Shown: positions 2,112 to 59,347 of the stretch, one piece after another
Numbering within the stretch: the stretch's first letter is position 1
Layout: each line of letters opens with the position of its first letter
Origin: Leucobacter tenebrionis
GTDB taxonomy: Bacteria > Actinomycetota > Actinomycetes > Actinomycetales > Microbacteriaceae
Length of the DNA: 64,000 nt
Reading direction: 5' to 3'
NCBI RefSeq assembly: GCF_019884725.1
Contig: NZ_CP082322.1
Location: 3,038,001 to 3,102,000 of the forward strand
The notes under the pieces: generated by a model
What the model saw: the letters and a program-made list of their open reading frames with translations, nothing else
The model's database searches: none
Told to the model about the DNA's origin: nothing
Position numbers and translations under genes: made by a program

Positions 2112-3353
2112 CTACGAGAGCGCCGGCGAATCCCAGAGCCGCAGCCTCGTGCCGATGCCGCGCTCGATCGCGTTGCGGTAGACCTTGGTCGCCCACGCGA
2201 CATCCTGCACCGGAATGCCGCCCGTGCCGAACACGAATACCTCGTCGTCGTGCTCGCGTCCCCGGGTGAGGCCGGGGATGATCTCGCCGAGGTCCTCGAA
2301 CCGCTCGGCCGGCAGGCTCCCGGCACGCACGCGCTCGACGAGGTGCACGCCCCAGAGCCCCACCGTCTCGTATGCGGGAGCGGGCACCTCGTCGGCCCAC
2401 ACCTCGTAGATGCGCCGGGCGTCGACGACGTGCCGAGCCCGCTCGACCAGTGCCTCGTCGAGGGCGAGGTGCGCGGGGCAGAAGATGAACGCGCCGGGCT
2501 TCACCCACTCGTTGACGACGAAGGGATAGTGCTCGGACCCCGAGGGGCTGGGCACCGCGATGCTGACGATATCGGAGCCCCTTACCGCGGCCTCCATGCT
2601 GTCGACCGCCACCACCGAGGCGACCGCGGGGAACTGCTCTCGCGTCCAGCGGATGAACCCGTCGACGTCGGCCTGCACGATGCCGTAGACCTTCACCTCG
2701 TCGATGCCGGGCCGCACCGCCATGAAGGCCTCGAACGAGGCGCGGTTGATCGGTCCCGGTCCGACGACGCCCACCGTGCGGGTGTCCTCGCGTGCGAGGT
2801 ATCGCGCCCCCACTCCGGGGATCGCGCCGGTGCGGTAGGCGCTCAGCAGGTTCGCCGACATGATCGCGAGCGGCGCCCCGGTGTCGGTGTCGTTGAGGGT
2901 GTACATGAGGATCGAGCGGGGCAGACCCCTCTGGCGGTTCTCGACGTTCGATCCGTACCACTTGCACCCCGTCGCGCGGTAGTCGCCCCCGAGATAGGCG
3001 GGCATCGCCATGAAGCGGCGGTCGGGGCCGTCGGCGGGCATGCCCGGGAACTCCGGATCGGCCGGGAACGACAGCATCGCTCCGTGCGAGAGGCTGTCGG
3101 CGCCGGCCAAGCGGTAGTCGCCCCGGGCGAACAGCTCGAGCACGTCGGTCATGGTGTCGACGCACGCGGCCATGTCGGTCACGCCGGCGGCGATCATGGC
3201 CGGTTCGTCGAGGTAGAGGAAGTCGAGGCCCGCGGAGGGCGGGGCGGGGCTGCCCGGCGAGGGTGGCACGGAACCGGGCGCGGAGGGCGGGGCGGGGCCG
3301 CCCGCAGAAGCAGCAGCGGGGTCGCTCGCCGAGGGGGCGCTTTCGACGGTCAC
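2112..3353 (-). CDS. Ornithine cyclodeaminase/mu-crystallin family protein (tyramine oxidase subunit B-like)
   Basis: NAD(P)-binding protein of the OCD/mu-crystallin family, 413 residues. The nucleotide-binding loop is visible as VGVVGPGPINRAS. An N-terminal Ala/Pro/Gly-rich stretch of about 40 residues precedes the conserved part (LDFLYLDEPAMI). I chose the GTG at 3353 because AAGGAG lies just upstream; a longer reading has no SD. Close relatives are often labelled tyramine oxidase subunit B in databases, a label I recall rather than prove. Last gene of the leftward operon, 56 bp after the SnoaL-like gene. Possible roles are imine or ketimine reduction, or amino-acid dehydrogenation, in amine catabolism; true ornithine cyclodeaminase activity is not supported. 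Confidence 0.85.
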   Translation of the reverse strand: MTVESAPSASDPAAASAGGPAPPSAPGSVPPSPGSPAPPSAGLDFLYLDEPAMIAAGVTDMAACVDTMTDVLELFARGDYRLAGADSLSHGAMLSFPADPEFPGMPADGPDRRFMAMPAYLGGDYRATGCKWYGSNVENRQRGLPRSILMYTLNDTDTGAPLAIMSANLLSAYRTGAIPGVGARYLAREDTRTVGVVGPGPINRASFEAFMAVRPGIDEVKVYGIVQADVDGFIRWTREQFPAVASVVAVDSMEAAVRGSDIVSIAVPSPSGSEHYPFVVNEWVKPGAFIFCPAHLALDEALVERARHVVDARRIYEVWADEVPAPAYETVGLWGVHLVERVRAGSLPAERFEDLGEIIPGLTRGREHDDEVFVFGTGGIPVQDVAWATKVYRNAIERGIGTRLRLWDSPALS

Positions 3354-3409
3354 TGTGCTCCTTCGGGCGGGGTGAGGAATGGGAGAAGAGTCCCGGCGCG
3401 GCTCGCCGC

Positions 3410-3766
3410 TCAGACCGTGGTGAAGACCTTGCTGGTGATGCGCCACACCCCGTCGCGCTTGATGAGCCCGAAGTGGTTGCGGAAGTCGGCGCCGAGGAAG
3501 CCCCGCTCGTCGAGTACGGCGTGGGCGATGTCACCGGTGACGGTCACGCTGTGGATCTCGGAGGAGTACTCCGGTCCCGCGGGCGCGGCGGTCGCCACGA
3601 CGTTGTCGGCGAACTCCGCTCCGCTCATCGTGGCGTAGTCGGGCCCGAGGTAGCCCCACATGATCGCGTTCGGATCGAAGGCGTCGCGCACGACCGCGGG
3701 ATCGGCTGCCTTGCACCCGTCGACGTACTTCTGCACTGCGGCCTCGACCGCTGCTGCTTCACTCAT
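3410..3766 (-). CDS. SnoaL/NTF2-like (lumazine-binding-like) protein
   Basis: Small alpha+beta cone-barrel protein of 118 residues in the NTF2/SnoaL superfamily, closest in pattern to the putative lumazine-binding group (AAVQKYVDGCKAADPAVVRDAFDP at the start, HFGLIKRDGVWRITSKVF at the end; shown here as two separate motifs). Such proteins act as small isomerases, hydrolases or ligand carriers. The start at 3766 is set by AGGAG about 7 bp upstream. It sits between the aldehyde dehydrogenase (108 bp) and the OCD-family gene (56 bp) on the same strand, so it is probably part of the same pathway. The substrate cannot be read from sequence. Confidence 0.8.
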   Translation of the reverse strand: MSEAAAVEAAVQKYVDGCKAADPAVVRDAFDPNAIMWGYLGPDYATMSGAEFADNVVATAAPAGPEYSSEIHSVTVTGDIAHAVLDERGFLGADFRNHFGLIKRDGVWRITSKVFTTV

Positions 3767-3874: not shown

Positions 3875-5290
3875 TCAGCGTCCGCTGATCACCTGGGGCT
3901 CGGCGACGGCCTTGAGGCCCTCGACACCGAACTCGCGGCCGTAGCCGGACTTCTTTGCACCGCCGAAGGGCACCATGGGGTGGAGCCCGCCGTGCGAGTT
4001 GATCCAGGTGGTGCCGGCCTGCAGGCGGCCCGCGACCTCGAGCGCCTTGGCGCGATCCTGCGTCCAGACCGAGGAGCCGAGGCCGAACTCGAGCTCGTTC
4101 GCGAGGCGGATCGCCTCGTCGAGGTCGGTGTAGCGGATGATGGGCAGCGCCGGCCCGAACTGCTCCTCGACGACGAGATCGTTGTGGGGGTCGATGTCGG
4201 CGACGATGGTGGTCGGGTAGAAGTTGCCCGGGGCCTCGCGGTCGGGCTCACCGCCGAGCACCACGCGGGCGCCGGAGGCCTTGGCTGCCTCGACGAGTCG
4301 GTCGACGGTGTCGAACTGGTTGCGGTTCTGCAGCGGGCCGAGCACGTTGTTCTCGTCGAGCCCGACGCCCATCGGCACGTTCGCGGCGAACTTCGCGAGC
4401 TCGTCGACGACGGCGTCGTAGACCGAGTCGTGCACGTAGAGGCGCTTGAGCGCGGCGCAGGTCTGGCCGGTGTTGATGAATGCGCCCCAGAAGAGCTCCT
4501 CGGCGATCGCGGCGGGATCGACGTCGGGGAGCACGATGCCGGCGTCGTTGCCGCCGAGCTCGAGCGTGAGACGGGTGACGTTGTTCGCCGACGCCTCGAT
4601 GATCTGCTGGCCGACCGGGGTGGAGCCGGTGAACATGATCTTGCCGATCTTCGGGCTGCGGGTGAGCGCATCGCCCACGGTGCGGCCAGGGCCGGTCACG
4701 ATGTTCAGCACGCCCTCGGGCAGCACCTGGTTCATGACGGCGACGAGCGCGCGCACCGACAGCGCGGTGGTGTCGGCCGGCTTGATGACGACGGTGTTGC
4801 CCATGCGCAGCGAGGGCGCGATCTGCCAGATCGAGATCATCATCGGCCAGTTCCAGGGCGAGATCGCGCCGACGACGCCGATGGGGCGGTAGTGCATCTC
4901 GGCGTACCCGGACTCGTCGTCGACGAGGACCTCGACGGGCAGCGGGGTGTCGGCCGCGGTGCGGGTCCAGGCCACGCAGCCGCCGACCTCGAAGCGGGCG
5001 TTCGGGCCGTTGAGCGGCTTGCCCTGCTCGCGCGAGAGCAGCTCGGCGAGCGCCTCCGACGACGCCTCGATCTTGTCAGCGGCACGGTGCAGGTACGCGC
5101 TGCGCTCCTCGTCGGAGAGCGCGGCCCACGCGGGCTGCGCAGCCTCGGCCTTGTCGATCGCGGCCTCGAGATCCTCGATCGACTGCTTCTGCACCTTGCC
5201 GATGACCTCGTCAGTGGCCGGGTTGACCGAGTCGCGCGTCTCGCCGTCGGTGGCGACGACCGCCGCGAGCAGGCTTTCGTAGGTTTCCAT
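3875..5290 (-). CDS. NAD(P)-dependent aldehyde dehydrogenase
   Basis: Oxidises an aldehyde to the carboxylic acid with NAD(P)+ in the cytosol. It has the full family length of 471 residues. Visible are the SPWNWP loop (Asn147), Lys170 in VVIKPAD, the general base Glu244 in LELGGNDAG and the nucleophile Cys278 in NTGQTCAAL. GGAGG lies 6 bp before the ATG. It is 32 bp downstream of the MFS gene in the leftward operon. With the alcohol dehydrogenase upstream it could take an alcohol or an amine-derived aldehyde to an acid. The chain-length or aromatic preference is not evident; a phenylacetaldehyde-type role is inference from the amine oxidase elsewhere in the window. Confidence 0.95.
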   Translation of the reverse strand: METYESLLAAVVATDGETRDSVNPATDEVIGKVQKQSIEDLEAAIDKAEAAQPAWAALSDEERSAYLHRAADKIEASSEALAELLSREQGKPLNGPNARFEVGGCVAWTRTAADTPLPVEVLVDDESGYAEMHYRPIGVVGAISPWNWPMMISIWQIAPSLRMGNTVVIKPADTTALSVRALVAVMNQVLPEGVLNIVTGPGRTVGDALTRSPKIGKIMFTGSTPVGQQIIEASANNVTRLTLELGGNDAGIVLPDVDPAAIAEELFWGAFINTGQTCAALKRLYVHDSVYDAVVDELAKFAANVPMGVGLDENNVLGPLQNRNQFDTVDRLVEAAKASGARVVLGGEPDREAPGNFYPTTIVADIDPHNDLVVEEQFGPALPIIRYTDLDEAIRLANELEFGLGSSVWTQDRAKALEVAGRLQAGTTWINSHGGLHPMVPFGGAKKSGYGREFGVEGLKAVAEPQVISGR

Positions 5291-8691: not shown

Positions 8692-8696
8692 CGCGC

Positions 8697-9659: not shown

Positions 9660-9686
9660 GTCAGGTCCTTTCAGTGGAGTCGCGGA

Positions 9687-44544: not shown

Positions 44545-46635
44545 CTACTTGCCGCAGGCGCAGCGCTCGTTGCCGCAGCGGCAGGTCTCGCCCGCGCAGC
44601 ATCCGCAGCCGGATCCCGCGCAGCAGCCGGATCCCGCGCCGTCCGAGGCGCACGCGCCGCCCCCGGCGCGCGCGTCGGAGGCGAGATCCATCGCGGGGTT
44701 CCGGTCGAGGAAGCCGTGCGGCTTGAACCAGAAGCCCGAGTAATCGACGGGCATGATCGGCCAATCCTCGGTGCGCGGGATGTGGGTGGGGCCGAAGACG
44801 TGCCACAGCACGATGTCCTCGCCGTCGAGCGAGCGGTCGGCCTTCGTCCACTCGGGCAGCCCGGCCCCGGGCGCGTGGGCGTTGGGGTAGAAGCCGGCCG
44901 GGTAGAGCTCTTCGGGATCGTACCGGGTGCCCCACAGGTGCTTCGTGGCGAAGTTGGCGCGCCCGTGCACCGTCGATTCGGGCTGCGCCGCGAGCAGCAT
45001 CTTGCCCTCGGGGATCAGCCAGTACGAGGTCGGCTTGCCCACGTGGTTCTTGCGGTGCGCGGACCGCACCTCCCACACCCGGCCGGTGAGGCCGTTGGCG
45101 ATCCGCTGCGCCTCCTGCTCGCTCCTCAGCTGCGTGTCCGACCAGGTGAAGGCGTTGCCGTAGGGGTTGTCGGGGCCGGTCGGGATCTGCACCGCCTCGA
45201 CCTCGTGCAGCGTGTTGTCCTCGCCGTCGATGGCGGCATCGATGCGGGCGCAGAAGAGGTGCTGGTGCACGGGGGTGAAGATGCCGGGCGCGATCTCGGT
45301 GCGGTGCGCGTCCTCACTGCCCGGGACCCCCGCGCCCGCGAATACGATGCCGGTGGCTTTCGCCTCGACCTGGATCGAGCCGTCGAGGTAGAAGTACCAG
45401 AAGAAGCCGTAGTCGTAGTTGCCGATGGTGGCGAAGTAGCTGACTACGAGGCGGCGGCTGCGGCGCACCTCGGCGTTGCCGTCGAGGTCGGTGTGCTTCC
45501 AGAGGATCCCGTAGTCCTCCTCGTGCATGCAGATCGCCTGGGGGATGCTCACGGGGTTGCCGCGGTCGTCGGGCACGAACGCGTCGAAGTAGTGGATCAC
45601 GCCGAGGCAGTCGCAGCCGAGCGCGAGGGAGTTCGCGTTCTTGCCGAGCAGGTACTCGCCGGCGTCGAAGTAGCTGATCCAGTAGCGGCTCACCGAGGTG
45701 TCGCCGTAGGGCACCACCATCTCGGGCACGCTCGCTCGGTGCGCGACCGAGCGATCCTCGTCGCCGTCGCGGAAGCTGATCTGGTTCAGCACCAGACCCT
45801 CCTGCTGCGTGAATCCGACCCTGAACTTCCAGTTCTCCCACTGTACGAGGCTGCCGTCGACCGAGAACGACGGCCCCTCCGGCTGCGTGATCTCGATGGG
45901 CTTGAGGCTCGTGCGGGCCGGGCCCTGCACGTCGAGCGTGTAGTTGCCGTGCGCCTCGGGCACGGGGATGTCGCCCTCGTCGTCGATGCGGATCACCCGG
46001 CGCTCGGTGAGGTCGACGTGCACCACGAGGCCCTCGACCGGGTGCGCCCACGGGCTGTCGGTCTCGGAGTCGCGCAGGTAGGTGTGCGAGCGCACGATCC
46101 GCTTGCCGACCTCGTCCTCACGGCCGAAGAAGCCGGGCGCGAGCGGGGAGCAGAATGCGAGCTCCATGCGGTCCTCGAGGCCGCGGCGCTTCATAGCGGC
46201 CTGCCACTCCGAGGAGGCCTTCACGATCGCGGCCGCATCCTCGTACTCCTCGAAGAGGTACTGCGGCTGACCGTAGGGCGCCTCGCCGTTCGGCAGCACC
46301 CGCAGGCTGTCGATCTCGCCGCGCGTCACAGCGACGATCGCCTCGGAGGCGACGCCGGTGCTGCGATCGAGCAGCGTCACCCTGATGCGGCGGTCGAGCG
46401 CATCTCCCGGCTGCCACGCCGCGAGGTCGGCCTTGGGCGGATCGACGGGCAGCATGCGCGGCACTCGCGTGTGCCCGGTGAAGTGCCCCGCGTCCGCGAG
46501 GATCCGCCGCGCTTCGGCGATCTCGTCGCCGGTGAGCGGGTCGAGCGGGTGCTCGACCGTCTCAGGAGTGGTCACTCGCTTGCCGTGGGTGTGGGTGGCG
46601 TCGGGTCGATGCTGGCGGCCTGCGGCTTGCGTCAT
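44545..46635 (-). CDS. Copper-containing primary amine oxidase with Cys-rich C-terminal tail
   Basis: Oxidises primary amines to aldehydes with release of ammonia and hydrogen peroxide, using copper and topaquinone. It has 696 residues. The topaquinone precursor is Tyr407 in TIGNYDYGF, the catalytic base is Asp324 in SYFDAGEYLLG, and the copper ligands are His457 and His459 (HQH) and His618 in FGPTHIPRTEDW. No signal peptide is visible. The last 36 residues hold ten Cys as CC, CxC and CxCG groups, which is not part of the family core. It is first in its operon and divergent from an SDR. A tyramine or phenylethylamine-type substrate is likely by family. Confidence 0.95.
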   Translation of the reverse strand: MTQAAGRQHRPDATHTHGKRVTTPETVEHPLDPLTGDEIAEARRILADAGHFTGHTRVPRMLPVDPPKADLAAWQPGDALDRRIRVTLLDRSTGVASEAIVAVTRGEIDSLRVLPNGEAPYGQPQYLFEEYEDAAAIVKASSEWQAAMKRRGLEDRMELAFCSPLAPGFFGREDEVGKRIVRSHTYLRDSETDSPWAHPVEGLVVHVDLTERRVIRIDDEGDIPVPEAHGNYTLDVQGPARTSLKPIEITQPEGPSFSVDGSLVQWENWKFRVGFTQQEGLVLNQISFRDGDEDRSVAHRASVPEMVVPYGDTSVSRYWISYFDAGEYLLGKNANSLALGCDCLGVIHYFDAFVPDDRGNPVSIPQAICMHEEDYGILWKHTDLDGNAEVRRSRRLVVSYFATIGNYDYGFFWYFYLDGSIQVEAKATGIVFAGAGVPGSEDAHRTEIAPGIFTPVHQHLFCARIDAAIDGEDNTLHEVEAVQIPTGPDNPYGNAFTWSDTQLRSEQEAQRIANGLTGRVWEVRSAHRKNHVGKPTSYWLIPEGKMLLAAQPESTVHGRANFATKHLWGTRYDPEELYPAGFYPNAHAPGAGLPEWTKADRSLDGEDIVLWHVFGPTHIPRTEDWPIMPVDYSGFWFKPHGFLDRNPAMDLASDARAGGGACASDGAGSGCCAGSGCGCCAGETCRCGNERCACGK

Positions 46636-46844: not shown

Positions 46845-47660
46845 ATGGCAGACAAGAACGACGGCGTTCAGGGGCGAGTGGTCGTCATCACGGGCGGCGG
46901 CACCGGCATCGGAGCCGCGATCGCCGAGCGCTACGCGGGCGAGGGCGCCCACGTCGTGCTCATCGGACGCAGGATCGGCCCGATCGAGGACGTCGCGGCG
47001 AAGCTGGGCGGCACCGCGATCGCCGCCGACGCGGCCGACGGCGAATCGGCTCGCGCCGCAGTCGCGCAGATCGTCGACAAGTTCGGCCGCATCGACGTGC
47101 TCGTCGCGAACGCGGGCGGCCACGGCTTCAACGCGGTCGGCGAGACCGACGACGATACCTGGGAATCGTCGATCAAGGTGAACCTGACGACCGCGTTCAC
47201 GATGTCGCGCGAAGCCCTGCCGGCGCTCATCGAGAGCCGCGGTCAGATCGTGGTGATCTCCTCGCTCGCGGGCGTCTTCGCCGGCCCGAAGGTCGCCGGG
47301 TACACCACGACGAAGCACGCGCTCATCGGCCTCACCCGCTCCCTGGCCCGCGACTACGGCGTGCACGGCGTGCGGGTGAACGCGGTCTGCCCCGGCTGGA
47401 CCCGCACGCCGATGGCCGACGCCGAGATGGACGAGTTCATGGGGCACGTACCCGAGATCGCCAGCCGTGACGAGGCGTACGGCCGTGTCACCCGCGACGT
47501 CCCGCTCAAGCGCGTCGGCGAGCCCGACGAGATCGCATCGGTCGTGCGCTTCCTCGGCTCGAACGAGTCGTCGTACATCACCGGGGCCGTGATCATGGCC
47601 GACGGCGGCGCGCACATCGTCGACCTCCCGACGCTCGCGTTCGAGCACGCCGGGATGTGA
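46845..47660 (+). CDS. Short-chain dehydrogenase/reductase
   Basis: Classical SDR of 271 residues: TGGGTGIG, VANAGG in place of NNAG, Ser in VISSLAG, Tyr/Lys in YTTTK, and PGWTRTP. GAAAGGA lies 6 bp before the ATG. It is divergent from the amine oxidase and followed after 55 bp by an amidohydrolase. It could process a hydroxyl group on the same amine or aldehyde; the substrate is not shown by sequence. Confidence 0.92.
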   Translation: MADKNDGVQGRVVVITGGGTGIGAAIAERYAGEGAHVVLIGRRIGPIEDVAAKLGGTAIAADAADGESARAAVAQIVDKFGRIDVLVANAGGHGFNAVGETDDDTWESSIKVNLTTAFTMSREALPALIESRGQIVVISSLAGVFAGPKVAGYTTTKHALIGLTRSLARDYGVHGVRVNAVCPGWTRTPMADAEMDEFMGHVPEIASRDEAYGRVTRDVPLKRVGEPDEIASVVRFLGSNESSYITGAVIMADGGAHIVDLPTLAFEHAGM

Positions 47661-49533: not shown

Positions 49534-50229
49534 CTACCCGCCCAGGTATGCCTGGCGCAGCAGCTCGGGATCCTCCTCGAGCGCCTTCGCCGACCCCTGC
49601 GGGTGGCTCACCCGGCCGCTCGCGACGACCATCGCCTCATCGGCGATGCCGAGCGCGAGGTGCGTGAACTGCTCGACGAGCAGCACGCCCACGCCAGACG
49701 CCGCGATCTGCTGTATGAGGGGCAGCAGGCGCATGAACACGACGGGCGCGAGTCCGAGCGACATCTCGTCGATCAGCAGGAAGCGCGGCTTCGACGCGAA
49801 CGCGCGGGCGAGCACCACCATCTGCTGCTCGCCGCCCGACAGCAGCACGGCCTGCGAGTCGATGCGCTTCTCGAGCTCGGGGAACGACTGCAGCACCTCC
49901 TGCACGCCGGCATCGTTCTTCGCGGTCAGCAGCAGGTTCTCGCGCACCGTGAGCGACGGGAAGATCGCGCGCCCCTGCTCGATGTGCGCGATGCCGGCCC
50001 GCGAGCGCTGCACGCGGTTCCACTTCGCGATCGACTCGCCGTCGACGGTGATGTCGCCCGCCGCGTGGCCGATCACACCCGACACCGACTCGAGCAGGCT
50101 CGTCTTGCCTGCGCCGTTCGGGCCGACGAGCGCGAGGATCCTGCCCTCCCGCACGGTGAGGTCGACATCGGAGACGACCGGTCCGGCCCCGCGGCGAACG
50201 GTCACACCGCTCAGTTGCAGTTCGTTCAT
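49534..50229 (-). CDS. livF: Branched-chain-type ABC transporter ATP-binding protein LivF
   Basis: ATPase of 231 residues: Walker A GPNGAGKTS, Q loop, signature LSGGEQQM, Walker B FLLIDEMSLGLAP (LivF-type, Met in place of Pro) and VLLVEQF. It powers a Liv-type importer. It starts by ATGA overlap with the permease-ATPase fusion and is last in that leftward transporter operon. Liv-type systems often import aromatic compounds and amines rather than amino acids, which fits the neighbours. Confidence 0.93.
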   Translation of the reverse strand: MNELQLSGVTVRRGAGPVVSDVDLTVREGRILALVGPNGAGKTSLLESVSGVIGHAAGDITVDGESIAKWNRVQRSRAGIAHIEQGRAIFPSLTVRENLLLTAKNDAGVQEVLQSFPELEKRIDSQAVLLSGGEQQMVVLARAFASKPRFLLIDEMSLGLAPVVFMRLLPLIQQIAASGVGVLLVEQFTHLALGIADEAMVVASGRVSHPQGSAKALEEDPELLRQAYLGG

Positions 50230-51989
50230 TGCGTCATCTCCGCATCTCCCATGTAGGCCGCGATCACGGCCGGGTCGTCGAGCACCTCGCGGGTCGGGCC
50301 CTGGGCGAGCACCTTTCCGAAGTCGAGCACGGTGAGTTCGGTGCACACGGAGCGCACGAGGTCGAGATCGTGCTCGATGACCACGATCGCCGTGTCGAAG
50401 CGCGACGGGATCCGGGTGAGCCGGTGGCCGAACTGCAGGTGCTCCTCGTGCGAGAGACCGGCCGCCGGCTCGTCGAGGATCAGCACGCGCGGGCCCGACA
50501 GCACTGCGGCCGCCACCTCGATGAGACGGCGCGTGCCCACGTCGACGTTCGCCAGCTGCTCCTCCGGGGGAGGGCAGCCGAGGAACGCGAGGGCGTCGGC
50601 CAGCTCGTCGTGATCGAGGCTCTTGCGCGCGACGAACCGCACGTAGGCCTCGACCGACAGCTGGGGCGGCACGCGATCCTGCTGGAACGTGCGGCGCAGA
50701 CCCTTGCGGGCGCGGGCCACCGGCGAGAGCCGCGTGATGTCCTCGCCGTCGAGCAGCACCGTGCCCGTGTGCTGGGGCAGGAAGCCGCTGACCGCATCGA
50801 CGAAGGTCGACTTGCCGGCGCCGTTCGGCCCGATGAGACCCATGATGGAGCGCGGCTTCACCTGCAGGGACACGTCGTCGTTGGCCTTGAGGCTGCCGAA
50901 CTGCACGCCGAGGCTGCGCACCTCGAGCACCGGGGCGGCGTTCTCCGGGATCGGTTCGGTCGCCTCGGGTACGGCGAAGACGTCGAGCGCGGTCGTGCCG
51001 ACATCGCTCGCGACGGCCTCGGCCTGCGCGGCCTGCCGTTTCTTCGCCCGCTTGCGGAACCCACCGCGGATCACCTCGCCCAGATTCGAGCCGCCCGTGA
51101 TCGCCTGGATGCCGAGCAGACCGAAGATGACGAAGCCCCAGTCCTGGGGCACGCCCCAGCGCTTCAGCAGCTCGGGCACGAGCACCCAGAGCACACCGCC
51201 GAAGATGGCCATATCGATGAGGTAGGCGCCGCTCATCACCGCGAGGATGTAGAGCGCGAGCGACATGATGGGCGTGAAGCTCGAGGCGTAGGGGATCCCG
51301 ACCTGACCGGCGAGCAGGCCGCCCGAGACACCGCCGAGAGCCGCGCTGACGGCGAACGCCGACAGCTTCGCCATGCGCACGCTCTGGCCGACCGCGGCCG
51401 TGCCGCGCTCGGAGAAGGCGACGGCCTTCCAGCTGCTGCCGACCCGGCTGCGCTGCACGAGGAACACGAGGTAGGTGCAGACGACCAGCACGATGATCGA
51501 GAAGAAGAAGTACTCGCGATCGCTCGAGAAGAGCCCGGGCCGCTCGACCGAGAGGCCCTCCTTCTGACCGGGGAACTGGGTCTGCACGAGCAGCACGTCC
51601 ACCGCCGCTGCGGCGCCGAGGGTGACGACCGCCAGGTTGACGCCGCGCAGACGCAGCGCGGGCAGGCCGAGCAGGATGCCGGCGACCGCGGCGACGACCG
51701 CTCCGGCGAGCAGCCACACGATGAACCCGCCGGGAGCCTCGTTCTGATTGAGGAAGGTGACGACCCACGCTCCGATGGCGCTGAACGTGAGCTGGCAGAG
51801 CGCGATGATGCCGGCCGAACCCGTGACGATGCCGAGACCGAGCAGCGAGATCGTCGCGGTGACCATGCTGATGGCGAGGTAGACGACGTAGCCGGAGAGC
51901 CCGACGCTCAGGGCCCAGCCGATGCCGAGGCCGATGACCGCGATGGCGATGGGCAGGACAGTGCGCAGGCGCCGATTAGCGAGCAGCAT
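50226..51989 (-). CDS. Liv-type ABC permease (LivM) fused to ATP-binding protein (LivG)
   Basis: Fusion protein of 587 residues. Residues 1-300 are a multi-helix LivM permease (GLPALRLRGVNLAVVTLG and the EAA-like region), 305-350 an Arg/Lys then Ala/Pro-rich linker, and 354-587 a LivG ATPase. The latter has Walker A GPNGAGKST at 387, Walker B VLILDEPAAGLS and VVIEHDLDLV. The ABC signature is changed: LANVDVGTRR replaces the usual LPxGxQR. The start overlaps the LivH 3' end by 14 bp. Such fusions are known in actinobacteria. It transports together with LivH and LivF. Confidence 0.92.
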   Translation of the reverse strand: MLLANRRLRTVLPIAIAVIGLGIGWALSVGLSGYVVYLAISMVTATISLLGLGIVTGSAGIIALCQLTFSAIGAWVVTFLNQNEAPGGFIVWLLAGAVVAAVAGILLGLPALRLRGVNLAVVTLGAAAAVDVLLVQTQFPGQKEGLSVERPGLFSSDREYFFFSIIVLVVCTYLVFLVQRSRVGSSWKAVAFSERGTAAVGQSVRMAKLSAFAVSAALGGVSGGLLAGQVGIPYASSFTPIMSLALYILAVMSGAYLIDMAIFGGVLWVLVPELLKRWGVPQDWGFVIFGLLGIQAITGGSNLGEVIRGGFRKRAKKRQAAQAEAVASDVGTTALDVFAVPEATEPIPENAAPVLEVRSLGVQFGSLKANDDVSLQVKPRSIMGLIGPNGAGKSTFVDAVSGFLPQHTGTVLLDGEDITRLSPVARARKGLRRTFQQDRVPPQLSVEAYVRFVARKSLDHDELADALAFLGCPPPEEQLANVDVGTRRLIEVAAAVLSGPRVLILDEPAAGLSHEEHLQFGHRLTRIPSRFDTAIVVIEHDLDLVRSVCTELTVLDFGKVLAQGPTREVLDDPAVIAAYMGDAEMTQ

Positions 51990-52851
51990 CCCACACCTCC
52001 TTTCGCTGCGACCACAGCAGCAGGATGACGATGAAGATGAGCGGCACGAAGTTGCGCACCAGCGCGAGCTCGTTGACCTGGGCGACCATGCCGTTGATCA
52101 GTCCGAGCAGCAGGCCGCCCACGACCGCGAGGTCGAGCCGCTTGAACCCGCCGAGCAGGGCGGCCGCGGCGGCGGGGATGATGAGCATCGAGAGCGTCAC
52201 CGCGTCGTTCGACTGGGTCGGAGCGATGATGAGGATCGTGACGGCGCTGATCGCGCCGGTCACCGCCCACACCCCGATGGCCAGGGGCTTCGACGAGATG
52301 CCGATGAGCTCCGCCGTGGTGGGGCGGTCGGAGAGTGCGCGGAGCTTCGTGCCGATGGTCGTCTTGCGCAGCACCAGTGCTGCGGCGACGGCGACGAGGA
52401 TCGCGAGCGTCACGGTGATGACCGTGACCCAGCTCACCACGACCCCGGCGATGCTGAATGCCGGCCCGTTGAAGATCGGAGCGAAGGGCTGCGGCTTGTT
52501 GCCGAAGAGGATGTAGGAGAGCGACATCAGCAGCAGGAAGGGGCCCACCGTCATCGCGGATCGCGTGGACAGGTCGGCCTCGGACAGCCAGGTGGCGGCG
52601 ATCCAGCCGATGAGAGCCGAGAGCAGCGCGCCGACCAGGATGCCGGCGATGGTGGCGAGCCAGACGGGCATGCCCAACTTGCTGGCGAACCACACCGCGA
52701 CGAACGCGGCGAACATACCGGTCGCCGCCTGGGCGAAATTGACGACGCGCACGAGGCGCGACATGAGCGTGAGCGTGACCGCGAACACCGCGTACACGCC
52801 ACCGGCGGCGAGGCCCGAGAGCGCGCCCTGCAGCAGGGCTCCGCCGTTCAC
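51976..52851 (-). CDS. livH: Liv-type ABC permease LivH
   Basis: Permease of 291 residues, eight or so helices, with GLAAGGVYAVFAVTLTLM at the N-terminus and the cytoplasmic loop RKTTIGTKLRALSDRPTTAELIG before the last helices (about 170-190). The GTG at 52851 has GGGGAGG 5 bp upstream. It lies 123 bp after the binding-protein gene, separated by a strong hairpin. It forms the pore with the LivM domain of the next gene. Confidence 0.93.
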   Translation of the reverse strand: MNGGALLQGALSGLAAGGVYAVFAVTLTLMSRLVRVVNFAQAATGMFAAFVAVWFASKLGMPVWLATIAGILVGALLSALIGWIAATWLSEADLSTRSAMTVGPFLLLMSLSYILFGNKPQPFAPIFNGPAFSIAGVVVSWVTVITVTLAILVAVAAALVLRKTTIGTKLRALSDRPTTAELIGISSKPLAIGVWAVTGAISAVTILIIAPTQSNDAVTLSMLIIPAAAAALLGGFKRLDLAVVGGLLLGLINGMVAQVNELALVRNFVPLIFIVILLLWSQRKEVWDAAR

Positions 52852-52974: not shown

Positions 52975-54153
52975 TTACTTGGCGGGGATCATCAGCCAGT
53001 CCTCAGCGGCCTTCTCCCAGGTGTTGGTGCCCGACTGCAGGGTGACGGGCCAGCCGCCCGGCTCGTAGTCCTGGGCAGCCATCTTGTCGAACTGGTAGGG
53101 GTAGGCGAGCATGGGGGTCTCGATCGGATCCATGTTCTTGAGCGCCTCGTTGACGCTCTCGCGGGTGATGTCGCCGTCGATGCCCTCGAGCACCTCGACC
53201 ATGAAGGTCGCGGCAAGGTAGCCGCCCTGGCTGAACGAGGTGAGCGTGATGTCGTTCTCCTCCATCAGCGACTTCCAGTCGGCGTTGACCTCGCTGTCCT
53301 CGGTGAAGGGGTAGAACTCCGCGGGCACGTAGACGCCGGCCGCGCTGTTGTCGATCGCCTTGGCGAAGCTCTCGCTGTACACCGAGGTGAGCATCAGGAA
53401 GGTGACGTCGTCCCAGCCCTGCTGGTTCGCGGCCTTGATCATGCCGATCGCGTCTGGCTCGACGTTGTTGGTGACGATGCCGTCGCAGCCGGCCTCCCTC
53501 GCCTTCACGACGTAGGGGGTGTAGTCGGCGCCGCCGTAGGGCACGGTGTCGTCGACGTACAGGGGCTCCTTGCCGGTGATCTCGCTCCAGCGGTCGACGC
53601 CGGCCTGGTAGGCGGGGCCGGTGGAGCCGATGACGCTGGTCAGCACGCAGAGGTTCTCGAGGCCGAGCTCTTCGGAGCCGTAGAGCATCGTGAGCGTGGT
53701 GTCGTTGAACGGGCCGATGTTCGCCGCGCCGATGTTCGGCGAGTTGAAGCAGCCGGGGTCGACGCCGATGCCCTGGATCGAGCGCACGTCCTCCTGCTCG
53801 TAGTACTTCGCGTTGATCTCGCAGTCGAGCAGCGAGGCGCCGCCGACGAGCGCGACGACCTCGTCGCTGCCGACCAGCTCTCGCGCAGAGGCCGTGGCGG
53901 TGGCCGGGTCGGCCTTGTCGTCGGTGACCTTGTACTCGATCTGGCGGCCGTTGATGCCGCCCTCGGCGTTGACCTTGTCGAAGACGGCGGCCGCAGCCTC
54001 GGACGCCTCGGGGAAGGTGGCGGGACCGCTGATGGTGTTGACGGAGCCGAGCTTGATCGGCCCGCCGTCACCGCCCTCGCTGCCCGCGCAGCCGCTCAGC
54101 ACGAGTGCTGCTGCCGCGGTCAGCGCGGCAGCGCCCAGGATGCGTGATTTCAT
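52975..54153 (-). CDS. Liv-type ABC substrate-binding lipoprotein
   Basis: Periplasmic-binding-protein family 6 lipoprotein of 392 residues. The signal ends LVLSGCAGS with the lipid-bearing Cys. Motifs include IKLGSVNTISGPA, EGGINGRQIEYKVTDDKAD and VALVGGASLLDC. It captures the solute for LivH/LivM. GAGAGGA lies 6 bp before the ATG at 54153. It is 49 bp downstream of moaF on the same strand, linking the transporter to amine catabolism. The ligand may be an aromatic amine or amino alcohol (inference). Confidence 0.92.
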   Translation of the reverse strand: MKSRILGAAALTAAAALVLSGCAGSEGGDGGPIKLGSVNTISGPATFPEASEAAAAVFDKVNAEGGINGRQIEYKVTDDKADPATATASARELVGSDEVVALVGGASLLDCEINAKYYEQEDVRSIQGIGVDPGCFNSPNIGAANIGPFNDTTLTMLYGSEELGLENLCVLTSVIGSTGPAYQAGVDRWSEITGKEPLYVDDTVPYGGADYTPYVVKAREAGCDGIVTNNVEPDAIGMIKAANQQGWDDVTFLMLTSVYSESFAKAIDNSAAGVYVPAEFYPFTEDSEVNADWKSLMEENDITLTSFSQGGYLAATFMVEVLEGIDGDITRESVNEALKNMDPIETPMLAYPYQFDKMAAQDYEPGGWPVTLQSGTNTWEKAAEDWLMIPAK

Positions 54154-54202: not shown

Positions 54203-55021
54203 TCAGACCGGCTGCGCGTCGGGGTACTTGACGGTGCCGAGCGGGTAGATGTGGCCGCCCGCTCGGGAGTGCTCCGATTCGCCGTCGCCGTTGATGCCCA
54301 GGAAGATGCCCGTGGTCATGAGGTTGTAGCCCAGGTCGTGCAACCACACACTCGCGACCGAGATGCGGAACTCCCGGAAGCAGAAGAGGTAGAGACCGTC
54401 GTCCAGCTTCCATACGGTCGACAGGTCCATGTCGCCGTGGCCGCGCTGCACGCCCTGCAGGTTCTGCCAGGCGTAGCGCTCCGTCGACATGTAGACGTGC
54501 TCGTAGAGGTGCTCGGGGCTGTAGCGGTAGAGGTTGCGCATGCCGATGAGGTCGCGCGATTCGCCCGGCTCATCACCGATCGCATCGGCGCCGTCGATCG
54601 TGGCGGCGTGGAAATCCTGCTTCACCTGGGGCTCGCCCTCGACGCGCTCGGCGTCGATGTGCGAGTGGGTGACGATGGCTCGGCCGGTGCGCTCGGACCA
54701 GACCACGGTGACGGCCTCGCGATCCCGCGATTCCAGGGGCAGGTTCAGGAAGAACACGTCCTTCCGAACCTGCACGGCGTCGTAGGGATCGGTCGCGTCG
54801 GCCTCGGCGATGGTGCCGCTCGCGCTCCACCTCGCGGTGTCCGAGCCGAAGGCGAGCGAGAGCGAACTACCGTCATCGAGGGTGAGCGAGAGCTCGCGGC
54901 CCTCGAGCGACACGTTCGGCAGACGATACGTGTCGATGCCCGCCGCGAACTCGTCGTAGGTGGCCCACTCGTCGACGCCGCGACGCTCTTCCGTGAACTC
55001 TGCGATCTCTGCTTCTGTCAT
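54203..55021 (-). CDS. moaF: MoaF family protein
   Basis: Protein of 272 residues matching the two-part MoaF family: an N-terminal calycin-like domain (LTLDDGSSLSLAFGSD to TGRAIVTHSHID) and a C-terminal one (YSPEHLYEHVYMSTERYAWQ, YLFCFRE). In Klebsiella moaF belongs to the monoamine (tyramine) regulon. Databases often mislabel it as molybdenum cofactor biosynthesis protein F. AAGGAG lies 9 bp before the ATG at 55021. It stands first in front of the Liv-type transporter. Its biochemical role is unknown; a chaperone or binding function for amines is possible. Confidence 0.85.
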   Translation of the reverse strand: MTEAEIAEFTEERRGVDEWATYDEFAAGIDTYRLPNVSLEGRELSLTLDDGSSLSLAFGSDTARWSASGTIAEADATDPYDAVQVRKDVFFLNLPLESRDREAVTVVWSERTGRAIVTHSHIDAERVEGEPQVKQDFHAATIDGADAIGDEPGESRDLIGMRNLYRYSPEHLYEHVYMSTERYAWQNLQGVQRGHGDMDLSTVWKLDDGLYLFCFREFRISVASVWLHDLGYNLMTTGIFLGINGDGESEHSRAGGHIYPLGTVKYPDAQPV

Positions 55022-55215: not shown

Positions 55216-55245
55216 CGTCGCCCTGCGCCTGGGCGCAGGGCGACG
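55216..55245 (-). terminator. Hairpin after the AraC-type regulator gene
   Basis: Two 14-bp perfect arms (55216-55229, 55232-55245) with a minimal loop, 15 bp beyond the stop on the minus strand. No U tract is visible. Confidence 0.65.
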
Positions 55246-55260
55246 GGTGAGGACCGCGCC

Positions 55261-56223
55261 TCAGGCGCGGCGCAGGTCGCTCGGCGAGACCCCGTACGCC
55301 GACTTGAACACGCGGCTGAAGTGGGCAGCGTCGGTGAAGCCCCAGCGGGCGGCGATGGCCGAGACCGTCCGATCGCTGAGCACGGGATCGAGTAGGTCGG
55401 CGCGGCAGCGCTCGAGACGGCGCTCGCGGATCCACGTCGAGACCGTGGTCTCGGCCTGCCTGAACAGCGAGTGCAGGTGGCGGGTCGAGATGTAGTGCGC
55501 GGCGGCGATGCTGCCGGGGGAGAGATCGGGCGACGACAGGTGCAGGTCGATGTAGCTGTAGATCTTCTGCAGCAGGACCTGGTGCGGGTCGCGCTGGCCC
55601 GGTTCGGCGTCGAGGATGCTCGAGAACAGCGTTCCCATGAGGTCGAGGCTCGTGTGCGCGAGCTTCGCGCGGATCGGATCCGAGAGATGCGCGAGCTGCG
55701 CCGGGAACTGCGAGAGGAACGCCGTGATGACCGGCGCGATCCCGCGATGCTCCTGGCTGAGCGAGACCGCGGTCAGCTGATCCGTGAAGGCGCTCGGCAG
55801 TTCGAGCCGATCCTTCGGGAACATCATGATGAGGTTGCGGAAATCCTCGCCGAACAGCAGGGAGTAGGGGCGCGAGGTGTCGTACACCGAGAGGTCGCCC
55901 GGTCGCATCACGAGCTCCCTGCCGTCCTGCACCAGGATGCTGCTGCCCGAGAGCAGTAGACTCACCTTGTAGTACCCGCTGCCGCCGTTCGCGATCGTCT
56001 CGGGGGTGCGCTCGACGAGGTGCGGCTTCGCCGCGATCTCGGTGAAGACCACGTCGTCGGCGTCGGCCGAGCAGAGCCGCGCGGCGAACGGGTCGGTGCG
56101 TTCGGCGCTGACCTCGAGCGGCACGAACGAGCGCGAGACGATACGGCGGAACACGCCGAGACTTTCGACCTGAGTCGGTCGGGAATCTGCGCGAGACACG
56201 TGCTGCTGTTCTGCAGTAGGCAT
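55261..56223 (-). CDS. AraC-family regulator, FeaR-like
   Basis: Regulator of 320 residues. The N-terminal ligand domain (FVPLEVSAERTDPFAARL, VFTEIAAKPHLVERTPETIA, PGDLSVYDTSRPY; separate motifs) matches the AraC-binding-like group that includes FeaR, activator of E. coli tynA/feaB. The C-terminus has a typical HTH pair (IAAAHYISTRHLHSLFRQAE and IAARWGFTDAAHFSRVFKSA). I chose the ATG at 56223, with AAAGG upstream, rather than one 18 bp earlier. It sits between moaF and the phospho-lyase, so it probably activates both in response to an aromatic amine or amino alcohol. Confidence 0.88.
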   Translation of the reverse strand: MPTAEQQHVSRADSRPTQVESLGVFRRIVSRSFVPLEVSAERTDPFAARLCSADADDVVFTEIAAKPHLVERTPETIANGGSGYYKVSLLLSGSSILVQDGRELVMRPGDLSVYDTSRPYSLLFGEDFRNLIMMFPKDRLELPSAFTDQLTAVSLSQEHRGIAPVITAFLSQFPAQLAHLSDPIRAKLAHTSLDLMGTLFSSILDAEPGQRDPHQVLLQKIYSYIDLHLSSPDLSPGSIAAAHYISTRHLHSLFRQAETTVSTWIRERRLERCRADLLDPVLSDRTVSAIAARWGFTDAAHFSRVFKSAYGVSPSDLRRA

Positions 56224-56284: not shown

Positions 56285-57553
56285 CTAAACCTCGGAGAGG
56301 GACTCTTCGAGCGCATCCAGCAGGATGGGCAGCTCGGCCTCGCCGAACGCGAGCGGGGGGCGCACCTTGAGCACGCTCTCGTCGCGGCCGATCCGGGAGA
56401 TGAGCACCTTGCGCGCCTTCATCGCCTCGACGACCTGCTTGGCGAGCTGGGGCGCGGGCTCACCGTCGATCGCGAAGTCGAGCCCGAGGAACATGCCGAC
56501 GCCCTTCGCCGAGCGCACGAAGTCGTACTGCTCCGCGAAGCCGCGGAAACGCGCTGCGGCCTCCTCGCCGAGGGTCTTCGCCCGCGCCATCAGCTGCTCC
56601 TGCTCCATCTCGATGAGCACGGCCTCGCCGACCGCGGCCGAGACCGGGTTGCCCGCGAAGGTGTTGAAGAACTCGTTGGTCGAGCCGAAGGCGTCGAGCA
56701 CGGCCTCGCTCGTGACGACCGCCGACATCGGGTGTCCGTTGCCCATCGGCTTGCCCATGGTCACGAGATCGGCGTCGAGCCCGGCGTACTGGTGCCCCCA
56801 CATGTGCGTTCCCGTGCGGCCGAAGCCGCTCTGCACCTCGTCGGCGATGACCATGCCGCCGGCCGCCTTGATGCGCGAGGCGATGCCCTCGATCAGGCCT
56901 TCGGGCAGGCGGGGCATGCCCTCCGTCGAGAACAGCGGGTCGAAGAGGCACGCGGCCACGCCGTAGCCGGCCTCCTGCAGCGACGCGATCGAGGCGTCGA
57001 GCGATGCGAGGGTCTCAGCGAGCACCTCGGCCTCGGGGCGCGGGTCGCGATCGAGATCCGGGATCCGCAGCGCTCGCACGTTCGGGTCCAGCGGCGTCGC
57101 GGTCTTGAGCCCCGTCGTGAGACCGGCGAGCGTGATGGTCGTGCCGTGGTAGCTGTAGTCGGACACGATCATGCCCGTGTTGCCGGTGAGCTGGCGCGAG
57201 ATGCGGATCGCGAGTTCATTGGCCTCGGATCCCGAATTGCCGAAGAAGATCCGATCGAGGCCCTGGTCGAATGTCGTGAGCAGGCGCTCCGAGTAGTCGA
57301 CCACGCGCTCGTTGAGGTAGCGGGTGTGCACGTTGAGCGTCGCGGCCTGCTCGGCGAGCGCGGACACGACGCGGTCGTTGCAGTGGCCCACGTGGGGCAC
57401 GTTGTTGTAGCCGTCGAGGTAGCGGTCGCCCGACGCCTCGGTGAACCAGACGCCCTTCGCCGACACGAACTGCAGCGGCTCGTTGTAGAAGAGGGGCGAG
57501 TAGGGGCCGATGGTGCGGTTGCGGCGCTCGATGAGTTCGGCGTTGGAAGTCAT
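56285..57553 (-). CDS. Class III PLP enzyme, amino-alcohol O-phosphate phospho-lyase (AGXT2L) type
   Basis: PLP enzyme of 422 residues. The PLP Lys is Lys268 in TMGKPMGNGHP, a wording typical of the AGXT2L group (ethanolamine-phosphate and phosphohydroxylysine phospho-lyases) rather than ordinary omega-transaminases. Other motifs shared with that group are NNVPHVGHC, FGNSGSEAN and SDYSYHG. It would eliminate phosphate and ammonia from a phosphorylated amino alcohol to give an aldehyde. AGGAG lies 7 bp before the ATG. A kinase gene lies 72 bp upstream on the same strand, giving the full kinase/phospho-lyase pair. Transaminase activity remains possible. Confidence 0.88.
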   Translation of the reverse strand: MTSNAELIERRNRTIGPYSPLFYNEPLQFVSAKGVWFTEASGDRYLDGYNNVPHVGHCNDRVVSALAEQAATLNVHTRYLNERVVDYSERLLTTFDQGLDRIFFGNSGSEANELAIRISRQLTGNTGMIVSDYSYHGTTITLAGLTTGLKTATPLDPNVRALRIPDLDRDPRPEAEVLAETLASLDASIASLQEAGYGVAACLFDPLFSTEGMPRLPEGLIEGIASRIKAAGGMVIADEVQSGFGRTGTHMWGHQYAGLDADLVTMGKPMGNGHPMSAVVTSEAVLDAFGSTNEFFNTFAGNPVSAAVGEAVLIEMEQEQLMARAKTLGEEAAARFRGFAEQYDFVRSAKGVGMFLGLDFAIDGEPAPQLAKQVVEAMKARKVLISRIGRDESVLKVRPPLAFGEAELPILLDALEESLSEV

Positions 57554-57625
57554 GGGGTTCTCCTGGGTCTGTGTTTGCGTCATCCTGGGCGACGGGGGAG
57601 TCGCAGGAACTCGGCGGGGCATGGG

Positions 57626-58624
57626 CTACGCGATGAGCTCGCGGGAGAGGCGGACGATGTTGGGCAGCACCGTCGTGGCGTGCCACTCGGCGGTGGGTTC
57701 GCCGCGGCGGTCGGCCGCCCATCCGAGGTAGGTGAGCCCGCGGGCGAGCAGGATCGCGGGGAACACGTCGTGGTCGGCCTCGTCGAGCGGACGCACGGCC
57801 TCGTACCCGGCGAAGAGCGCGTCGCGGTACTCGGTGTAGCGGGGGTGCGGCGTGAAGAAGTAGAGCGCGGTCGCGAGATCGAAGAGGTGCCAGCCGGCGG
57901 CGAAGTCGTCGAAGTCGATCAGCACGAGGCCGTCGCGGGTGCGCAGCACGTTCTCGGGCGTGAGATCGGCGTGGATCGGGCCGAAGCGGTGCGCGGGGGT
58001 GCCGTAGGCGCCGAGCACCTCGCGGATGCGCTCGATCGCCGCGACCACGGCTTCGCGATCCTCGCCCCGCAGCTCATCGATGCGCAGCGGGTCGCCCCAG
58101 GCGGGCTCGGCGCCGACGAGCCCCTCGAGATCCCAGTCGTCGCGCGGCACGGCCATCGTGTAGCCGGACTGCTCGGTGGCGCGGTGCACCTCGGCGGCCA
58201 GTCGGCCGAGCTCGGCGAAGTCGGCGGCGTCGAGGTCGGCGCTGCCGTCGACCGCGGTGCGCTCATCGCCGAAGTTGCCGTGGTTCGGGATGAGGTGCTG
58301 CAGGTCGACCTGGTGGGGGCCCGCAGCGTGGTCGCGGCCGACGACGCAGAAACCGCGGCCGTCGCGGGCCGTGACGAAGTTGGGCACGGCGACGCCCTCG
58401 CCGTGGAGGGCGCGCACGAAGTCGAGTTCGCAGCCGAGCTCGTCGTCGGTGTGGTAGCCCTGGCGGTGCACCCGCAGCACGTAGTCGGTGCCCCCGTCGC
58501 TGAGCGAGAAGACGAAGTTCTCGCGCTGCTTGAGCAGAGTGAGGTCGGTGGCGGGATCCATGCCGTACTCCGCGAGGGCCTCGCGTGCGAGCTGGGTGGC
58601 GATGGGGAGATCGACGGCGATCAT
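57626..58624 (-). CDS. Aminoglycoside-phosphotransferase-family kinase (amino-alcohol kinase)
   Basis: Kinase of 332 residues with the APH/choline-kinase fold. It has ENFVFSLSDGGTDYVLRVHR in the N-lobe, the catalytic loop HADLTPENVL and the metal-binding DFDDF. Hydroxylysine kinase belongs to this family and works with an AGXT2L phospho-lyase. Here the gene directly precedes such a lyase, so it probably phosphorylates the hydroxyl of an amino alcohol. GGAAGGA precedes the ATG at 58624. It is first in its operon and divergent from a TetR gene. It is not likely to be an antibiotic-resistance gene. Confidence 0.88.
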   Translation of the reverse strand: MIAVDLPIATQLAREALAEYGMDPATDLTLLKQRENFVFSLSDGGTDYVLRVHRQGYHTDDELGCELDFVRALHGEGVAVPNFVTARDGRGFCVVGRDHAAGPHQVDLQHLIPNHGNFGDERTAVDGSADLDAADFAELGRLAAEVHRATEQSGYTMAVPRDDWDLEGLVGAEPAWGDPLRIDELRGEDREAVVAAIERIREVLGAYGTPAHRFGPIHADLTPENVLRTRDGLVLIDFDDFAAGWHLFDLATALYFFTPHPRYTEYRDALFAGYEAVRPLDEADHDVFPAILLARGLTYLGWAADRRGEPTAEWHATTVLPNIVRLSRELIA

Positions 58625-58670: not shown

Positions 58671-58687
58671 CTATACGCCGAGTATAG
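58671..58687. promoter_or_regulatory. Palindrome CTATAC-N5-GTATAG, candidate TetR operator
   Basis: Perfect 6-bp arms (7 with flanking T/A) around GCCGA in the 114-bp divergent gap between the kinase and TetR-4. It is close enough to the kinase promoter to block it. Confidence 0.65.
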
Positions 58688-58738: not shown

Positions 58739-59347
58739 GTGACCGCAACGACCGCACCCCAGACCACGCTGCGCGAGCGCCGCCAGCAGCGCACGCGCGA
58801 GGAACTGGTCGACGCCGTGCTCGCGGTGATCGGCCAGAGCGGCCTCGCCGACACGACCATCGACCGGGTGTCGGCGGAATCGGGCATCTCGCGCGGCACC
58901 GTCTACGCCTATTTCCCCGGCGGCCGCGACGAACTGCTGCGCGCCGCGTACGCGCGACTCGGGCGGGGGCTCGTCGAGCGCACGCGAGAGGCGGTGTCGG
59001 CCGCGGGGGACTGGCGGGGCCGGATCGTCGCCCACGCCCGGGCCATGTTCGACCTCGCGGGCGATGCACGCATCGGCCACTTCTACAACGTGTCGGGGCC
59101 GACGCTCATCGTCGACGGGGCGGAGCGCGGCATCGGTTCGGGATCGAGCATCGTGATGATCCGCGAAGCGCTCGAGGCGGCGCAGACCGCGGGGGAGGTC
59201 GACGCCGAGGTCGACGCCGACACCGTGGCGGCGCTGCTGGTCGGGGCCATGCGGGAGGCGGCGATCGGAGTGGCCGCGGGTGAGCGGGACGCGGATCGCG
59301 CCTTCGCCGCGTTCGCCCGACTCATCGACGGGCTCGCCGCGCGGTAG
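58739..59347 (+). CDS. TetR-family regulator (TetR-4)
   Basis: Regulator of 202 residues: HTH IDRVSAESGISRGTVYAYF after a basic N-terminus (RERRQQRTREEL). It is not of the MPK-x-x-DHD type seen in TetR-1 to -3. It starts with GTG, probably leaderless. It is divergent from the kinase/phospho-lyase operon and is its likely local repressor, through the palindrome at 58671. It is convergent with TetR-5. Confidence 0.92.
   Translation: MTATTAPQTTLRERRQQRTREELVDAVLAVIGQSGLADTTIDRVSAESGISRGTVYAYFPGGRDELLRAAYARLGRGLVERTREAVSAAGDWRGRIVAHARAMFDLAGDARIGHFYNVSGPTLIVDGAERGIGSGSSIVMIREALEAAQTAGEVDAEVDADTVAALLVGAMREAAIGVAAGERDADRAFAAFARLIDGLAAR

Follow-up and report, generated by a model that had tools for sequence, protein, structure and literature searches.

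Leucobacter tenebrionis carries adjacent genes for an APH-type kinase and a predicted phospho-lyase dependent on pyridoxal phosphate (PLP). They lie in a stretch of 64,000 nucleotides (contig NZ_CP082322.1, positions 3,038,001 to 3,102,000), here called the window, and feature positions are those of the window. The preferred reading, to which we give a probability of about 0.68, is that the two enzymes form a route feeding aromatic beta-hydroxyamines into arylacetate catabolism. The lyase groups with known phospho-lyases, the gene order is kept in the orthologous Leucobacter loci compared, and related pairs stand beside aromatic pathway genes in several other lineages.

The kinase and phospho-lyase genes

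The kinase gene is found at 57626..58624 on the minus strand. Its ATG at 58624 is preceded by GGAAGGAA and its frame ends at 57626. The product has the motifs HADLTPEN (HxD....N) and IDFDD and scores 71.8 bits for APH (PF01636, cut-off 23.2). The lyase frame is open from 56285 up to 57622, the upstream limit of the open reading frame, on the same strand. The start is probably the ATG at 57553, which is preceded by AGGAGA; this gives a gene at 56285..57553. The frame contains the motif GKPMGNGHP and matches Aminotran_3 (PF00202) at 217.1 bits (cut-off 30.5). An APH-family kinase ahead of a class III PLP enzyme with this motif is what a preliminary description of the window had reported; both frames lie where it placed them, and both products pass their Pfam cut-offs.

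The lyase shares 58% identity with A1RDF1 (PDB 5g4i), a phospholyase of solved structure. This is also its best PDB match (523 bits), followed by human O-phosphoethanolamine phospho-lyase (6tor, 280 bits) and then dialkylglycine decarboxylase (164 bits). In a tree of 133 rows, built with FastTree only, it falls inside a set of 127 rows with A1RDF1 and 6tor (support 100); the program flags long branches, that of 6tor among them. Five other class III enzymes of the same genome and dialkylglycine decarboxylase are outside the set. The enzyme is thus not outside the AGXT2L group, in agreement with the preliminary description. In the predicted structure (pLDDT 88), the best Foldseek match is again 5g4i, with a TM-score of 0.95 and an rmsd of 1.6-1.7.

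The catalytic lysine (K268) is aligned in all 133 rows. N50-N51-V52 and R78 are common to 30 of 30 Leucobacter rows (window included), 84 of 84 named or plasmid rows, 4 of 4 rows of middle identity, 7 of 7 paralogs and 6tor (1 of 1). They occur in one of six paralogs from the own genome, six of seven having been compared, and are absent from the one dialkylglycine decarboxylase (0 of 1). These residues may be diagnostic for AGXT2L-type phospho-lyases. For the kinase, the top PDB chain is 6ef6 at 135.5 bits (runner-up 38.8), which we take to be the aminopropanol kinase of M. smegmatis. The window kinase also shares 45% identity with its counterpart next to A1RDF1 on pTC2. Sequence, tree and the predicted fold all support the pairing of a kinase with an AGXT2L-type phospho-lyase, as first proposed. 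The lyase is predicted to release phosphate and ammonia from a phosphorylated amino alcohol.

Conservation in Leucobacter

The order on the minus strand is kinase, PLP enzyme, FeaR-like AraC regulator, MoaF and Liv-type importer, with a TetR gene on the opposite strand from 58739. The regulator, MoaF and importer had been named earlier as neighbours, and their assignments hold: NF007243 for the regulator (147.9 bits, below cut-off), PF10703 and PF17409 for MoaF, and PF13458 for the binding protein of the importer. A lyase ortholog at 72% identity or more occurs in 31 of 54 genus genomes, the own genome included. Twenty-nine of the 30 orthologous Leucobacter loci outside the window were compared (G042 was left out), some on contigs that end early. 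All 29 have the kinase and the TetR gene, and 28 have the FeaR-like gene. MoaF, LivK, LivH and LivMG are found in 25 each, LivF in 24 and a short-chain dehydrogenase (SDR) in 24. Because the ortholog is so widely held and the order is kept across these 29 loci, the arrangement is not due to chance.

The pair is also linked to the homoprotocatechuate genes. HpaE is on the same contig as the lyase in 22 of the 31 lyase-bearing Leucobacter genomes, on another contig in eight, and not found in one. Where the contig is shared, the distance is within 81 kb in every case (22/22), with a median of 51 kb. In one locus (L048), HpaE and HpaD continue the run of TetR, kinase, lyase, FeaR and SDR genes, all within 20 kb. 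PaaA was not found in 15 of the 31 genomes; in nine it is on the same contig at a distance of at least 420 kb.

Paralogs of 40-46% identity (20 in all) served as a control for this linkage. Eight are on a contig with HpaE and four of these eight lie within 81 kb of it (Fisher test against 22/22, 0.0026). In the seven of the 20 paralog loci examined for gene context, no match to FeaR, MoaF, copper amine oxidase or a kinase of the window type was seen at 1e-10. Beside one paralog (L066), a 357-residue open reading frame begins like a kinase and is a candidate for one.

Relatives in other genera

The wider comparison covers the best 80 named loci among at least 586 relatives; 77 are from outside Leucobacter. 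These loci are related to one another, and counts among them are not independent events. A kinase homologue is present in 74 of the 77 and lies within 500 bp of the lyase in 71; the pairing is old. A kinase motif pattern, possibly too strict, matched 94 of 114 kinase homologues. Homoprotocatechuate genes are found within about 10 kb in ten of the 77 loci; as a rough estimate, a single cluster per 5-Mb genome would be met in a 21-kb stretch in less than 1% of loci. Within the same distance there are FeaB-like dehydrogenases in five loci, and copper amine oxidase, MoaF and FeaR-like genes in two each.

The fullest likeness is at the A1RDF1 locus of Paenarthrobacter aurescens pTC2. It has the kinase, TetR, lyase, FeaR-like AraC and MoaF genes, two FeaB-type (phenylacetaldehyde) dehydrogenases and a third fragment, with HpaE, HpaD, HpaH and HpaI within 13 kb. 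In Rhizobium dioscoreae (L107), HpaB, an HpaC-like flavin reductase, a UPF0261 protein, a class III aminotransferase, the lyase and the kinase are followed by CHMI, HpaE, HpaD, an aldehyde dehydrogenase, FAA hydrolase, HpaH, HpaI, an SDR and MoaF. HpaD, HpaE, HpaH and HpaI are above their cut-offs there; HpaB-2 is below (754 of 885.2 bits), with PF11794 and PF03241 above theirs. In Mesorhizobium AR07 the lyase and kinase stand directly ahead of paaX and the paa genes. In Phyllobacterium zundukense they follow a tyramine oxidase, an aldehyde dehydrogenase and a permease, and precede an SDR. Gene context in several lineages thus backs the aromatic beta-hydroxy amine substrate put forward earlier. 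As a separate observation, the UPF0261 gene of L107 (6725-7975) and the class III aminotransferase gene (8643-9995) lie just ahead of the lyase, and several other loci have a second class III match at the corresponding position.

The aromatic pathway in the own genome

The own genome encodes HpaE (661.8 bits) and HpaD (430.8 bits), both above cut-off, in hpa genes about 69 kb from the pair. No PaaA match was obtained in it at E<=1e-60. Since HpaD and HpaE are present and PaaA is not matched, a ring-hydroxylated substrate such as octopamine or noradrenaline fits the genome better than phenylethanolamine. Of the two aromatic substrates named in the preliminary description, phenylethanolamine is therefore the less favoured for this genome.

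A candidate for the next enzyme is the aldehyde dehydrogenase at 3875..5290 (minus strand). It is 67% identical to an aldehyde dehydrogenase next to A1RDF1, itself 82% identical to FeaB of pTC2, and is above no NCBIfam cut-off among the matches listed.

Proposed route

Known phospho-lyases act after a kinase: phosphorylation comes first, then 1,2-elimination. Here, the kinase would use ATP to phosphorylate the benzylic (beta) hydroxyl of a primary aryl-ethanolamine, the best candidates being octopamine and noradrenaline. The PLP enzyme would form an external aldimine with the primary amine, remove the C-alpha proton and expel phosphate from C-beta; hydrolysis of the enamine would then give ammonia and an arylacetaldehyde. 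An aldehyde dehydrogenase would convert this to arylacetate, for cleavage by the enzymes of the homoprotocatechuate pathway (HpaD/HpaE). Uptake of the amine may be the task of the Liv-type importer, and the TetR protein, acting at a 17-bp palindrome, and the FeaR-like activator would control the pathway. In Arthrobacter synephrinum, a direct dehydration of synephrine to 4-hydroxyphenylacetaldehyde is reported; the proposed route would spend ATP to bring about a conversion of this type on primary amines. No paper linking phenylethanolamine or octopamine to a phospho-lyase pathway was found in the open literature, although most subscription papers fell outside that search and such a link may be in print.

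If the proposal is true, it supplies a natural substrate class for the solved phospholyase A1RDF1 and takes kinase/phospho-lyase catabolism beyond aliphatic amino alcohols to aromatic ones. It would also provide a simple marker pair for bacteria which destroy signals resembling octopamine or noradrenaline in soil, plants, insects and guts.

A bolder form of the proposal is tentative, and we think it rather less likely to hold than to fail. In this form, the pair would be an ATP-dependent route that is dedicated to octopamine and noradrenaline, both neuro-active amines, and has spread by horizontal transfer. The substrate may here already be a catechol (noradrenaline or conjugates from insect cuticle), because the homoprotocatechuate ring-cleavage genes are present and HpaB was not found. 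The same 85-kb stretch also encodes sulfatases, amidohydrolases and an S58 peptidase, which could release such a conjugated amine. Lack of HpaB was considered as proof of a catechol substrate; that argument is weakened by a monooxygenase homologue of the HsaA/C2 type in the own genome and by the HpaB beside the Rhizobium cluster.

Points against the proposal and rival explanations

Several observations weigh against the aromatic route. In the own genome HpaH (346.3 of 351.5 bits) and HpaI (295.8 of 368.8) are best matches that remain below cut-off, and HpaB (TIGR02309, PF11794) was not found; the PF11794 cut-off is passed in 11 of the 54 genus genomes. The HsaA/C2-type homologue lies 1.2 Mb away and matches C2 hydroxylase 2jbr at 4e-33, with XiaF better; it is only a candidate substitute for HpaB. 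It is one of two proteins compared with the PDB from six genome places with PF08028, and the other of the two has glutaryl-CoA dehydrogenase as its best match. Four of the eight paralogs on a contig with HpaE are likewise no more than 81 kb from it. In part, then, the region is a catabolic hotspot, which takes weight from the kilobase-scale linkage in Leucobacter. Presence of the lyase in Leucobacter also tracks PaaA (p=0.053) almost as well as HpaE (p=0.044). Lastly, 60 of the 77 wider loci have none of the sought aromatic markers within 10 kb; for this reason the lyase family may serve several substrates.

The hotspot and the loci without markers speak for a first rival, in which the chemistry is the same and the substrate aliphatic, either ethanolamine or 1-amino-2-propanol, with the aromatic neighbours as bystanders. 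The second PDB match of the lyase is the human phosphoethanolamine enzyme, and 6ef6, the best match of the kinase, is presumably an aminopropanol kinase. We hold this explanation to be unlikely: in Paenarthrobacter, Rhizobium, Mesorhizobium, Phyllobacterium and Leucobacter, FeaR, MoaF, arylacetaldehyde dehydrogenase and hpa or paa genes repeatedly cluster with the pair. Still less probable is phenylethanolamine, with an unsubstituted ring, giving phenylacetaldehyde and phenylacetate. The position of the Mesorhizobium AR07 pair speaks for it, as does paaA within 10 kb in 2 of the 77 loci (Streptomyces torulosus L096 and Pseudomonas insulae L104), and a genome without PaaA could still use the amine for nitrogen alone. 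The missing PaaA match in the own genome and the absence or remoteness of PaaA in other lyase-bearing Leucobacter argue against it.

An omega-transaminase for aromatic amines, with the adjoining kinase unrelated to it, was rejected and is very improbable. Class III enzymes are mostly transaminases, according to PMC8154272. The best NCBIfam rows of the lyase are named aminotransferase or hypothetical and are under their cut-offs. If TM-score is the sole measure, several racemases and transaminases (0.85-0.90) rank level with 6tor (0.87). The tree, the best PDB and Foldseek matches, the kinase pairing in 71 of 77 loci, and the N50-N51-V52/R78 residues, which two known phospholyases share and dialkylglycine decarboxylase does not, tell against a transaminase and for the phospho-lyase with its kinase.

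Control region

The TetR-family gene (58739..59347, plus strand, PF00440) is divergent from the kinase gene and adjoins it in 29 of 29 Leucobacter loci. Its product is 38% identical to the TetR protein beside A1RDF1. The gap between the two genes contains a 17-bp palindrome, CTATACgCcGAGTATAG, at 58671..58687. The pattern CTATACTCnGAGTATAG is found in the same gap in all 29 loci, with no mismatch in nine, one in 12, two in four and three in four. The window copy has one mismatch and is the sole site in the window and in the genome at up to three mismatches; none arose in 100 shuffles of the window, and a control pattern read backwards has two matches per strand genome-wide. A Microbacterium locus (L102) has a site with three mismatches between TetR and kinase. 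In L100 a site is present but not between these genes. A second, weak site precedes MoaF in L040, L053 and L090, of which L040 and L090 belong to one species. Position and conservation make the palindrome a likely operator of the divergent TetR gene.

The FeaR-like AraC gene (55261..56223, minus strand) has its likely start at 56223. Its product remains under the equivalog cut-off of 199 for NF007243 and shares 36% identity with the AraC protein encoded near A1RDF1. The FeaR-like gene is followed by a perfect 14-bp inverted repeat (55216..55245), found by eye, which has no T run and is a possible transcript end. The repeat is not listed by the terminator scan, and the promoter and terminator scan gave no result above shuffles. 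Together with a 239-base gap ahead of MoaF, the repeat suggests a second transcript that carries MoaF and the importer genes.

Downstream and other genes

The MoaF-family protein (54203..55021, minus strand) is a two-domain beta-barrel with PF10703 and PF17409 over cut-off, and is 35% identical to MoaF of the A1RDF1 locus. A model of moderate quality (pLDDT 67) gives a good match to 4q51 alone; phenolic acid decarboxylases match weakly (TM 0.30-0.34). The core is strictly conserved (RDLIG, YEH, RYAWQ, GVQRGHGD and FREF), which suggests an enzyme or ligand-binding barrel and not a cofactor gene. The importer, also on the minus strand, comprises a periplasmic binding protein (52975..54153, PF13458, 191.7 bits), a LivH-like permease (51976..52851), a fused LivM-LivG-like permease-ATPase (50226..51989) and a LivF-like ATPase (49534..50229); the last three are open reading frames named from order and sequence.

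The SDR (46845..47660, plus strand, PF13561) is a recurrent partner: its 24 Leucobacter loci are counted at 60% identity or more, and at 50% or more it occurs in eight of the 77 wider loci. Two other neighbours were rejected as core parts. The copper amine oxidase (44545..46635, minus strand), present in 9 of 29 loci, is of the Arthrobacter phenylethylamine-oxidase type (NF008559, 854.7 bits, cut-off 651), and its best PDB entries are phenylethylamine oxidase. The amidohydrolase at 47716-49425 has orthologs in 2 of 29.

Near the start of the window there is a 'tyramine oxidase subunit B' family protein (2112..3446, minus strand, NF004848, 537 bits, cut-off 362). A StyA-like protein of the styrene-monooxygenase type (26838-28064, plus strand; 117.8 bits for Smoa_sbd, PF17885), together with a flavin reductase (28410-28910, plus strand), may make up an aromatic epoxidase, here in a genome where PaaA was not matched. 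A formylglycine-generating enzyme (29962-31200, minus strand) and sulfatases at 31758-34076 and 39974-42304 (both plus strand), with ABC transporter genes in between, might be a sulfate-ester module which frees conjugated aromatic amines. A DmpA-type S58 peptidase (L076:2903-4060, minus strand) is encoded about 3.5 kb from HpaE and adjoins an amino acid permease.

Comparison with known systems

The enzyme family itself is already known. The closest system is that of A1RDF1 from Arthrobacter (Paenarthrobacter) aurescens TC1, to which a report mentioned in the preliminary description for Arthrobacter-like bacteria corresponds. The two loci share the kinase, TetR, FeaR-like and MoaF neighbours. 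They differ in that the A1RDF1 locus has an amino acid permease, the two FeaB-type dehydrogenases and the hpa genes all within 13 kb, whereas the window has the Liv importer in the operon and the hpa genes at a distance. The match to 6ef6 also points to the 1-amino-2-propanol kinase/phospho-lyase of mycobacterial microcompartments, the system to which we presume 6ef6 belongs. General scans found no shell proteins among the window proteins; no search was aimed at the shell family.

Fused kinase/phospho-lyase proteins (NF004799 and NF004800) are the best NCBIfam matches of the lyase, at 414.8 and 305.9 bits, both below cut-off. They differ from the window pair, which is encoded by two separate genes, and the tree places the fused protein of the own genome outside a 125-row set. 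That protein, which has the NNV motif (L002 1489-4263, C1 near 520548), is by its sequence probably another amino-alcohol lyase, from a different subfamily. Human O-phosphoethanolamine phospho-lyase (AGXT2L1/ETNPPL, 6tor) shares the class III group, NNV and R78, but is 36% identical and acts on phosphoethanolamine (PDB name; papers cited in PMC8154272). Hydroxylysine kinase and phosphohydroxylysine phospho-lyase (AGXT2L2), by the title of a reference in PMC8154272, resemble the pair in their kinase-then-lyase logic; their substrate is a lysine derivative. According to that 2021 paper, no class III lyases of this kind had been documented before PbfA beyond ethanolamine-phosphate phospho-lyase and one close relative.

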